A stretch of DNA of 41,417 nucleotides, from positions 1 through 41,417 of the forward strand of contig JAUWLU010000005.1 in NCBI GenBank assembly GCA_030613545.1, given 5' to 3'. The notes beneath the pieces are model-generated. The model was not told the origin of the DNA. It ran no database searches and saw nothing but the letters and a program-made list of their open reading frames with translations. The DNA is from Desulfuromonadales bacterium (GTDB lineage: Bacteria > Desulfobacterota > Desulfuromonadia > Desulfuromonadales > Syntrophotaleaceae). Every line of letters starts with the position of its first letter. The stretch's first letter is position 1. Both the position numbers and the translations under genes were made by a program. Below, one piece after another: positions 21,656 to 24,931 of this stretch.

Positions 21656-22357
21656 ATGACTCAGCGCATCATCGAGATAACCTCTCCGACCTTTCTCCCG
21701 GAGCAACAACTTGACCCCCCTGTCGATTTCGCCGCGTTATTTGGCAACGACAACCCCCTGGCCCTGGAGATCGGCTGCGGCATCGGTGACTTTATTGTGC
21801 AACTGGCGGCGCAACAGCCGCAGCGAAACTTTCTGGCCATCGATATCTACAACAAGGGCTGCTACAAGACCTGCCGCAGAATCGACACAACGGGCCTGAC
21901 CAATGTTCGGGTCATGCGTATCGAGGCCCGGTTTCTACTCGACCGCTATCTGACCATGGACAGCCTGGACGCCGTGTACATCAATTGCCCGGACCCCTGG
22001 CCCAAGAAGCGTCATCGCCAGCGGCGCCTGGTCAACCGGGAATTTCTTAAAACATTACTGTACTATCTGCGGCCCGGCGGCGAACTCTTCTTCTGCACCG
22101 ATTTTGCCGATTATGCCGAACAGATCGCCCCGCAACTGCTCAGCCTGACCGAATACCAGAGCAGGCTTCCGCAACTGCCCGGCCAGTTGCCGGAGGACTA
22201 CCCCCGCTCGAAATACATGCGCCGCTTTCTTGAACAGGGACAACCGATCTGTTTTCTGCATTGCAGCAAACGGGAATCCTGCACCAGCGGCCCTCATTTG
22301 CTGGCACCGGTCAGCCCCGGATTTCGAACCCATTGGAGCACCCTGCAACATGGCTGA
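21656..22357 (+). CDS. trmB: tRNA (guanine-N7)-methyltransferase
   Basis: A 233-residue SAM-dependent enzyme that makes m7G46 in tRNA. LEIGCGIGDF is the SAM motif and NCPDPWPKKRHRQRRLV is the TrmB signature. AGGG lies about 11 bases before the ATG. Its last 8 bases overlap truD, so two tRNA-modifying enzymes are translationally coupled. The 251-bp gap upstream holds a GC-rich inverted stretch (around 21470-21500) but no RNA family I recognise. Confidence 0.94.
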   Translation: MTQRIIEITSPTFLPEQQLDPPVDFAALFGNDNPLALEIGCGIGDFIVQLAAQQPQRNFLAIDIYNKGCYKTCRRIDTTGLTNVRVMRIEARFLLDRYLTMDSLDAVYINCPDPWPKKRHRQRRLVNREFLKTLLYYLRPGGELFFCTDFADYAEQIAPQLLSLTEYQSRLPQLPGQLPEDYPRSKYMRRFLEQGQPICFLHCSKRESCTSGPHLLAPVSPGFRTHWSTLQHG

Positions 22358-23543
22358 CTACTTGACTAAACAATTCGCCGGCACCGGCGGCACCATCAAA
22401 GAGTGTCCGGATGACTTCCGTGTCGAAGAGATCCCCCTCTATGAACCTTGCGGCGAAGGTGAACACCTCTATCTCGACGTGGAGAAAAGCGGCCTGACCA
22501 CCTTTGATTTGCTGGAAACCCTGGCAAAAGCCCTCGGCGCCAAAAGGCAAGAGATGGGCTATGCCGGCCTTAAGGACGCGCGAGCCGTCACCCGGCAGAC
22601 CATTTCGATGACCGGAGTCCGGCCCGAACAGGCCATGGCCTTGCAACTCGACGGCATCACCATTCTGGCGGCCCGCTACCATCGCAACAAACTACGCACC
22701 GGCCACCTGCAAGGCAATCGCTTTACCATTCGCGTTCGCGATGTCGGCCCCCAGGCCCTGGAAAGAGCCCAGGAAACCTTGCATGTCCTGCAAATGACCG
22801 GGGTGCCCAACTACTTCGGCGAGCAGCGTTACGGCGTGCTGGGCAACAACCATCTGGTGGGCAAGGCGATTTTGAACGAGGATTTCTCTGCCGCAATCGG
22901 CCAGATCATCGGCGACCCGGCGACGATCCGCAACGCCGACTGGCAGCGAGCCGCCGAGGCCTTTGCCAACGGCGACATCGAAACGGCCCGCAGACTGCTG
23001 CCCCGGGGCATGGGCAGCGAAGCCCGATTGCTGGGCCAGTTGGCCAAGGGCTGTCCACCCCAAAAAGCTCTGTTCAACATGCCGCACAAGCTGCTGCGTC
23101 TCTACCTGTCGGCCTACCAGTCCTACCTGTTCGACCGCATCGTCAGCATGCGGCTCGCTTCTCTGGAGACCCTCTGGTCTGGCGACCTCGCCTACAAACA
23201 TGACAACGGCGCCTGTTTTCTGGTAACCGATCCGGCTGAAGAGCAACCGCGGTCCGACCGCCTTGAAATCAGTCCGTCAGCCCCGCTATACGGCTATAAG
23301 GTGACATTGAGTCAGGGGCAAGCCGGCATCCTTGAAGAGAGTCTGCTGACCAAGGAAGGCCTGACCCGGGACAGCTTCCGTCTCGCCCGCGGCCTCTCTC
23401 TCGAAGGGACTCGCCGCCCGCTGCGCGTGCCGATAGGGGAGGTCACTGTCACGGCAGAGAGCGACCACCTAACATTGGCCTTTACCTTGCCCAAAGGCAG
23501 CTATGCCACCAGCGTCTTGCGCGAGGTAATCAAGACAGGCTGA
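22350..23543 (+). CDS. truD: tRNA pseudouridine(13) synthase TruD
   Basis: A 397-residue pseudouridine synthase. The catalytic Asp is D76 in GYAGLKDARAVT, and VPNYFGEQRYG follows as in E. coli TruD. The TRUD insertion domain lies in about 150-300. ATG 22350 lies inside the trmB end (overlap 22350-22357), with GGAG eleven bases upstream. The frame is open upstream but the shared MADYLTKQFAGTGG start fits the family. A sigma-54-like promoter begins 59 bases after the stop and belongs to something else. Confidence 0.94.
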   Translation: MADYLTKQFAGTGGTIKECPDDFRVEEIPLYEPCGEGEHLYLDVEKSGLTTFDLLETLAKALGAKRQEMGYAGLKDARAVTRQTISMTGVRPEQAMALQLDGITILAARYHRNKLRTGHLQGNRFTIRVRDVGPQALERAQETLHVLQMTGVPNYFGEQRYGVLGNNHLVGKAILNEDFSAAIGQIIGDPATIRNADWQRAAEAFANGDIETARRLLPRGMGSEARLLGQLAKGCPPQKALFNMPHKLLRLYLSAYQSYLFDRIVSMRLASLETLWSGDLAYKHDNGACFLVTDPAEEQPRSDRLEISPSAPLYGYKVTLSQGQAGILEESLLTKEGLTRDSFRLARGLSLEGTRRPLRVPIGEVTVTAESDHLTLAFTLPKGSYATSVLREVIKTG

Positions 23544-23602
23544 TTCCAGCACCCTGAATTACCACCCCAACCACACCCCTGCGGACGCCACCTACAACAG
23601 AA

Positions 23603-23618
23603 TGGCACAAAATTTGCT
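23603..23618 (+). promoter_or_regulatory. Consensus sigma-54 promoter
   Basis: TGGCAC-AAAAT-TTGCT matches TGGCAC-N5-TTGCW at every fixed position, placing a start near 23629. No start codon with a ribosome site follows, only a hairpin at 23665. IclR begins 517 bases downstream. Confidence 0.6.
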
Positions 23619-23628
23619 GTAAAAAATC

Positions 23629-23695
23629 TGTAAAACACTGTACACATACTTCCAGATAACTTGTTAAACTGGTGGCCAGTTTATTTATTTTTCTT
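23629..23695 (+). ncRNA. Candidate sigma-54-driven small RNA or attenuated leader (~65 nt)
   Basis: The predicted transcript runs from the sigma-54 start to the U-rich tract after the hairpin at 23665-23683. It has no open frame and no similarity I recognise. It could be a real small RNA, or a transcription attenuator in a long iclR leader. This is inference from promoter-terminator spacing only. Confidence 0.3.
23665..23695 (+). terminator. Hairpin with T-rich tail downstream of truD
   Basis: TAAACTGG-TGG-CCAGTTTA (23665-23683) is a perfect 8-bp stem with a 3-nt loop, followed by TTTATTTTTC. It would terminate truD readthrough as well as any transcript from 23629. Confidence 0.65.
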
Positions 23696-23850
23696 CGCCA
23701 AAAGCAGAAGCCAGGCATACGCTCAGCACCATTAAAAACATCGGCAGCCAACCATAAACCACTACTCTTATTGAACATTTCAACCCAGACGGGACCTTAA
23801 AGGCTTATATAGAGCGTTACTTATTTGACTTAATCGACAGCCCAACCTTG

Positions 23851-23879
23851 TTGACTTTCATAAAACAAGATTTTATTAT
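23851..23879 (+). promoter_or_regulatory. Sigma-70 promoter, likely for iclR
   Basis: TTGACT (23851-23856) and TATTAT (23874-23879), spacing 17 bp. The start near 23886 would give an iclR leader of about 260 nt. Confidence 0.55.
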
Positions 23880-24145
23880 TTCACATAACCTACGTTCAGA
23901 AATGGCCTTTTAAGCCTCTTTTTTCATCAGGCAATGCGCCAAATCAGAACAGGCTATCCACTATAAATTTTGCACCATTCGCCATCTTACTGAAACAGTC
24001 GCCTCAGAACCTTGCTCGCCCTGAGTCAACTTAACGGACCACCCCGCCACAAGCAAGCGGGGCATAAAACCAGCATCAAATCATCCTATCGCAGCGAACT
24101 GAAGGAAATTTGACCCATAGAAGATTAAAAGAGGATACAAACACC

Positions 24146-24931
24146 ATGGCACGTAAAGAAAAGTCTGAATACATGATCCAGGCTGTGTCCCACGCCCTCG
24201 ATCTGCTTGAGCAGTTCCATGGCGACGATGTCGACGAACTCGGGGTCACGGAACTGAGCAAACGACTCAAGCTCCATAAAAATAATGTCTTCCGCCTCCT
24301 TGCAACCCTCGAATCCCGCGGTTATATCGAGCAGAACAAGGCGACCGAAAACTACCGCCTGGGCCTCAAGTCCCTGGAACTGGGCCAAACTTTTATCAAA
24401 AAGATGGGCCTGCTGCATCAGGCCAAACCGGTTCTGGAAGAACTGGTCGAGGAATCCAACGAAACCTCCTACGTCGCCATCTTTAAAGACGGCTACATCG
24501 TCTACCTCGATGTGGTGGAAACACGCCTTACGGTACGAGTGGTTTCCCGCGTCGGCACTCGGCTACCCTCCTACTGTACCGCCGCCGGCAAAGTCCACCT
24601 GGCCTACATGTCCGACGAGGAACTCGAAAGCTACCTGCCCAATCAGGAAATGGAAGCCTACACGCCGCACTCCATCACCGACCGCGACGTGCTCAAGAAG
24701 GATCTGGCCAAAGTCGCCGAACAGGGCTATGCCTTTGACATCGAAGAACTCGATATCGGCGTCCGCTGCGTTGCCGCCCCGATCCGCGACTATACCCGGC
24801 GCATCGTCGGCGCCCTGAGCATCTCCGGTCCCGCTACCCGCTTTACCGATGAACGACTGGAAAAAGAACTGGTTCCCTTGGTGACTCGAGCCGCCGAAGA
24901 GCTTTCGACCCGCCTCGGCTTTCACAAATAG
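24146..24931 (+). CDS. IclR-family transcriptional regulator
   Basis: A 261-residue regulator. The N-terminal winged helix (about 8-70) includes LGVTELSKRLKLHKNNVFRLLATLESRGYIEQ. The ligand-binding domain (about 85-258) has SYCTAAGKVHLAYM and AFDIEELDIGVRCVAAPIRD, which are the family's conserved pocket segments. GAGGA lies 11 bases before ATG 24146. Neighbours do not suggest a clear catabolic target; the hydrolase 214 bases downstream is only a possibility. The long AT-rich leader may allow self-regulation. Confidence 0.92.
   Translation: MARKEKSEYMIQAVSHALDLLEQFHGDDVDELGVTELSKRLKLHKNNVFRLLATLESRGYIEQNKATENYRLGLKSLELGQTFIKKMGLLHQAKPVLEELVEESNETSYVAIFKDGYIVYLDVVETRLTVRVVSRVGTRLPSYCTAAGKVHLAYMSDEELESYLPNQEMEAYTPHSITDRDVLKKDLAKVAEQGYAFDIEELDIGVRCVAAPIRDYTRRIVGALSISGPATRFTDERLEKELVPLVTRAAEELSTRLGFHK

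Follow-up and report, generated by a model that had tools for sequence, protein, structure and literature searches.

A conserved sigma-54-type site downstream of truD and its possible role as a distal input to an iclR-family gene in Desulfuromonadales

Introduction

Enterobacterial glnA is known for its tandem sigma-54 and sigma-70 promoters. The locus described here, in the spacer between truD and an iclR-family gene of a Desulfuromonadales bacterium, resembles that arrangement in that one leader would combine a sigma-54 promoter under regulation with a sigma-70 promoter open to repression, but it differs in that the gene encodes an IclR-family regulator and the sigma-54 promoter is the distal one. 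Within the same order, the RpoN regulon of Geobacter sulfurreducens has been described, and the main text of that study retains 110 predicted promoters, upstream of protein-coding genes, and names neither truD nor IclR (PMC2725144). As far as that text describes them, our site has in common with those promoters the order, the -24/-12 consensus, RpoN and a place in noncoding DNA upstream of genes. Sigma-54 also drives small RNAs, among them Pxr of Myxococcus (PMC5568312) and Qrr1 of Vibrio (PMC10162802), both of which have been studied experimentally; Pxr is structured and about 100 nt long (PMC5568312). The unit considered here is like these in having an intergenic sigma-54 promoter, no ORF and a possible terminator downstream, and unlike them in that it has no conserved structure and is predicted from sequence. 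No earlier report of a sigma-54 input to iclR was found in the open-licence papers searched; such an input would sit on a highly conserved IclR regulator of the Desulfuromonadales, the order of Geobacter and Desulfuromonas.

Results

The features discussed are collected in Table 1, with positions numbered in the window, by which we mean the whole 41,417-nt stretch of DNA that was analysed. The -24 half of the site, TGGCAC (23603-23608), and the -12 half, TTGCT (23614-23618), are separated by AAAAT, so that GG at -24 and GC at -12 have the canonical GG-N10-GC spacing and the TGGCAC-N5-TTGC consensus is satisfied. The site lies 59 bases after the truD stop codon in a truD-iclR spacer of 602 bases, and the GC content from the promoter to the T-tract is 31%, as against 58% for the window. 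The genome encodes rpoN (Sigma54_DBD, E 2.2e-64) and at least one sigma-54 activator protein (Sigma54_activat). No clear activator-site dyad was found in the 200 bp upstream of the promoter, where its expected place is at or inside the end of truD. Exact matches to TGGCACNNNNNTTGCW occur seven times in the 2.85-Mb genome compared with once in a reversed control, and three of the six other sites are intergenic in promoter orientation: one follows the end of a gene for an ammonium transporter, one falls between the genes for a sigma-54 activator and for a protein with a dinitrogenase FeMo-cofactor domain, and the third precedes a gene for a predicted secreted protein by 70 nt.

Table 1. Positions of the predicted elements and genes in and around the truD-iclR spacer.
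Feature	Position	Strand	Remarks
truD (tRNA pseudouridine synthase D), upstream gene	22356..23543	+	Pfam TruD, E 5.8e-122; start codon approximate
Predicted sigma-54 promoter (-24/-12), TGGCAC AAAAT TTGCT	23603..23618	+	Exact match; conserved mostly 1-60 nt after truD, several families
Expected transcription start	~23629	+	12 nt from the -12 C; from sigma-54 promoter geometry
13-mer TAAAACACTGTAC, ~+3 to +15	23631..23643	+	TAAAACACCGTAC in four other genus members
Hairpin TAAACTGGTGGCCAGTTTA with T-tract TTTATTTTTC	23665..23693	+	Candidate terminator of the truD and/or sigma-54 transcript
P1, sigma-70-type promoter, TTGACT-N17-TATTAT	23851..23879	+	Palindromic site TAAAACAAGATTTTA between the hexamers
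T-tract 36-38 nt downstream of P1	23919..23924	+	Position conserved in genera g1 and g4
Regulator gene of the iclR family, probably the downstream target	24146..24931	+	Pfam IclR_C, E 6.7e-50; HTH_IclR

The unit at 23603-23695 holds no credible forward ORF. Short forward ORFs were rejected as not conserved, and the sole listed ORF that spans the unit, of 82 amino acids on the minus strand (23530-23778), was discarded as a gene since nothing related is found at the orthologous place. An Rfam search of the unit gave no match and a tRNA search gave nothing. The initial annotation, which had read an exact -24/-12 site after truD in AT-rich DNA, a hairpin with T-tract beginning 36 bases past the expected start (~23629) and the absence of an ORF, was right on each of these points, in its positions as well as its arithmetic.

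One explanation for the site is a chance match to a 16-bp consensus in AT-rich DNA, without function, and an exact match found once in 41 kb is indeed unremarkable when taken alone, as four sites with at most one mismatch were found in the window against 1.9 expected. The comparison with relatives argues otherwise. Orthologues of truD are present in 129 of 136 genomes of the order, and with a sigma-54 position weight matrix made by hand from the published consensus, 22 of 64 truD-downstream regions scored at least 12 bits against 0.39 expected from dinucleotide shuffles, a count that includes the window itself and species of one genus that are not independent of each other; at this threshold reverse complements gave no site and the reversed sequence gave one. 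Sites follow truD in four of four readable members of genus g1, five of five readable members of genus g3, four or five of five of family f4 and part of family f18, and the spacer of these relatives has otherwise diverged. The aligned sites of genus g1 read TGGCAC-GCCGT-TTGCT (G001), GGGCAC-ACCGT-CTGCC (G002) and TGGCAT-GAAGT-CTGCT (G004), and in G003, where the locus is cut by a contig end, the -12 GC is lost (TTAC for TTGC). Genus g3, which belongs to the same family as the window, has TGG with ACTTGCT/A 2-19 bases after truD (five species readable and a sixth masked by Ns; one of the distances depends on the chosen end of a disrupted truD frame). In family f4 four species show CGGCAC-N5-TTGCT at a distance of 2-6 bases from truD, and the fifth has a variant in which the first G is altered; TGGCAW-N5-TTGCW is found in four species of f18. 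Across 20 species from three families, G3, T13, G14 and C15 are invariant, G2 and C4 are kept in 19 of the 20, and the spacer columns are free. Going by these alignments, the recurrence of the site at one place in so many families cannot be chance, the kinship of the species and the hand-made matrix notwithstanding, and a functionless match is so improbable as to be refuted for practical purposes. The sigma-54 promoter is very probably real because the same place is kept in many relatives, and it is the survival of the -24/-12 elements while the spacer drifts that turns a promoter call from raw sequence into a strong and testable one.

No recognisable site is present in genus g2, in families f16, f17, f6 and f7 or in more than half of f18, and iclR therefore does not need a sigma-54 site everywhere. 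Other families have sites at -397 to -454 relative to iclR (TGGCATATACCTTGCT and others), which were considered as deep conservation; they were discarded because they are contained in the coding region of a divergent, universal-stress-protein-like gene.

A different gene follows the site in family f12. Here the pattern TGGCAAA-N-CC-YTTGCA lies 3-15 nt after truD, with a sigma-54-like TTGGCAAANCCYTTGCA directly after the gene at three loci (L177, L178 and L179), and in the three genomes with readable spacing it stands about 80-95 nt before a DUF4212 gene that is followed by a sodium:solute symporter gene. As the f12 site precedes the symporter operon, iclR need not be the original target. Perhaps the promoter changed targets, or perhaps the arrangement is convergent; we hold either view loosely, since the f12 site might be a sigma-70 -35 element (TTGGCA). 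The regulatory position after truD would be shared, by the symporter operon in one family and apparently by iclR in others. Another possibility is that the promoter has lingered as a relic after the loss of an operon whose ancestral order was truD-sigma54-DUF4212-symporter, as in f12, and the window's genome does contain no DUF4212 gene. A relic should decay, yet the -24/-12 elements have stayed fixed in genera and families that lack the operon here, even as the spacer and flanks around them changed to saturation, and the doubt over the f12 site as a -35 element applies here as well; we consider a relic very unlikely.

The hairpin at 23665-23683 has eight pairs, three of them G-C, and an energy of -6.9 kcal/mol. 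A simple scan of 1 kb returned one terminator-like site against 1.3 expected, and a stricter test for a hairpin plus T-tract at the same distance was passed by none of 60 shuffles; the hairpin is only marginally above chance. All five members of the genus have a T-tract 65-68 nt after the -12 element, at which the hairpin energies are -6.9 in the window and -3.4, -3.2, -3.2 and none in the relatives. No counterpart of the hairpin was found in the genus alignment, and a terminator scan gave only one weak candidate, in G001. Compensatory conservation was also considered and rejected, no pairing being preserved in the genus alignment. Genus g4 has T-tracts 77-83 nt after the -12 element, one of them with a good hairpin; between the sigma-54 site and P1 there is no T-tract or terminator in genus g3 or family f4, and in family f18 the T-runs come far later than the site and are without hairpins. 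A convincing hairpin with T-tract is present only in the window's species.

The hairpin could simply terminate truD and have nothing to do with the sigma-54 promoter that it follows. No other terminator-like site was found within 750 nt of the truD stop codon, and several f18 species have a hairpin between truD and the sigma-54 site, which indicates that truD ends nearby. Against this, the structure is weak, is not kept in the genus and would stop a sigma-54 transcript equally well. We regard a truD terminator as quite possible, if somewhat short of even odds, and it is compatible with the explanation that we prefer below.

Near the expected start, the 13-mer TAAAACACYGTAC is the same in five of five genus members except for one C/T change, and the next 45 nt diverge; among the matches listed it is exact at this place only. 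It could be a start-site operator or the 5' end of a functional RNA. A role as half-site of the P1 operator was rejected, as the P1 matrix score was not above background in most species. If the 13-mer is taken as a pairing region (UAAAACACYGUAC), the unit could encode a sigma-54-driven small RNA of about 60 nt that ends at 23665-23693 and acts on other mRNAs. The retention of the 13-mer, the T-tract distances in the window's genus and in g4 and the rarity of the hairpin-plus-T combination in shuffles would fit this, and Pxr (PMC5568312) and Qrr1 (PMC10162802) are precedents. However, the hairpin fades in the relatives, the promoter-keeping genus g3 and family f4 are without a terminator, and sites complementary to the 13-mer with at most two mismatches were no commoner than in a reversed control. 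The predicted transcript segment of 69 nt is no more stably folded than shuffles (z = -0.42) and, with no Rfam match, the unit offers neither a conserved or unusually stable structure nor a known RNA family. A dedicated small RNA is, in our estimation, rather unlikely.

The initial annotation had suggested such an RNA, of about 65 nt, as a possibility and had proposed conservation of promoter and hairpin downstream of truD as a check. The outcome is divided: the -24/-12 pair is kept after truD, and the hairpin is not, the genus retaining the position of the T-tract only. The small RNA is thus less certain than a second switch for iclR. The other reading offered at the time, an attenuator in an iclR leader, fared better, in that a leader fits the comparative data more closely than a small RNA, and attenuation within it may occur.

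Downstream, P1 was found upstream of iclR at 88 fetched loci, some of which represent the same species twice, and is conserved across the order. It contains TAAAACAAGATTTTA at 23861-23875 (pattern TAAAACA-NN-ATTYTA) and, at up to two mismatches, has a single occurrence in its own genome. As the motif is unique to the regulator's own promoter, this suggests that IclR may autoregulate through the palindromic operator in P1. In 57 of 58 genomes the iclR gene has an orthologue with at least 70% identity. A run of 5-8 T follows P1 in seven of seven species of genera g1 and g4, and in G003, G007 and G009 it is accompanied by a strong terminator hairpin, so the iclR leader has a candidate attenuator of its own. 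The segment 23880-23924 has two candidate readings, a conserved leader attenuator or an RNA of about 45 nt in the iclR leader. We also note that the 300 nt before iclR (23842-24146) are 69-76% identical within the genus, which makes for a conserved 5' leader of unusual length; they are much better kept than the spacer's first 300 nt, for which the genus comparison gave no match.

Discussion

We propose that the site is an activator-dependent, distal sigma-54 promoter that feeds the iclR leader and that, in the window's genus, may be attenuated to an RNA of about 60 nt; we give this reading a probability of about 0.55. We infer transcription from the site, the identity of its activator as an enhancer-binding protein and iclR as its target. 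When that protein is active, the promoter at 23603-23618 would fire towards iclR and transcribe the truD-iclR spacer, as a conditional promoter far from the gene. The transcript of most site-keeping relatives would continue through P1 into iclR and so supply the gene with another input in addition to P1; no stop would be met before P1 in genus g3 or family f4. In the window's genus it would first meet the T-tract with its hairpin of variable strength, about 55 nt past the start, and for this reason part of the transcript may end as an RNA of about 60 nt. Such an RNA would be an attenuated leader and not a dedicated, conserved small RNA. One finding runs against read-through in genus g4, where the strong terminator that follows P1 would halt the sigma-54 transcript too.

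A more elaborate form of this arrangement can be imagined for the genus, and perhaps for g4, in which an RNA of about 60 nt with an invariant and functional 5' UAAAACACYGUAC would combine with the tract after P1 into an iclR leader with two promoters and two attenuators. We think this unlikely; if it were true, a two-attenuator leader would link a sigma-54 signal to an IclR regulator found throughout the order. Between the sigma-54 site and P1, four f18 loci (L163, L167, L173 and L174) have a further conserved block around CAAACTGTTATATTAT...AACAGTTCTATCC, which resembles another promoter or operator.
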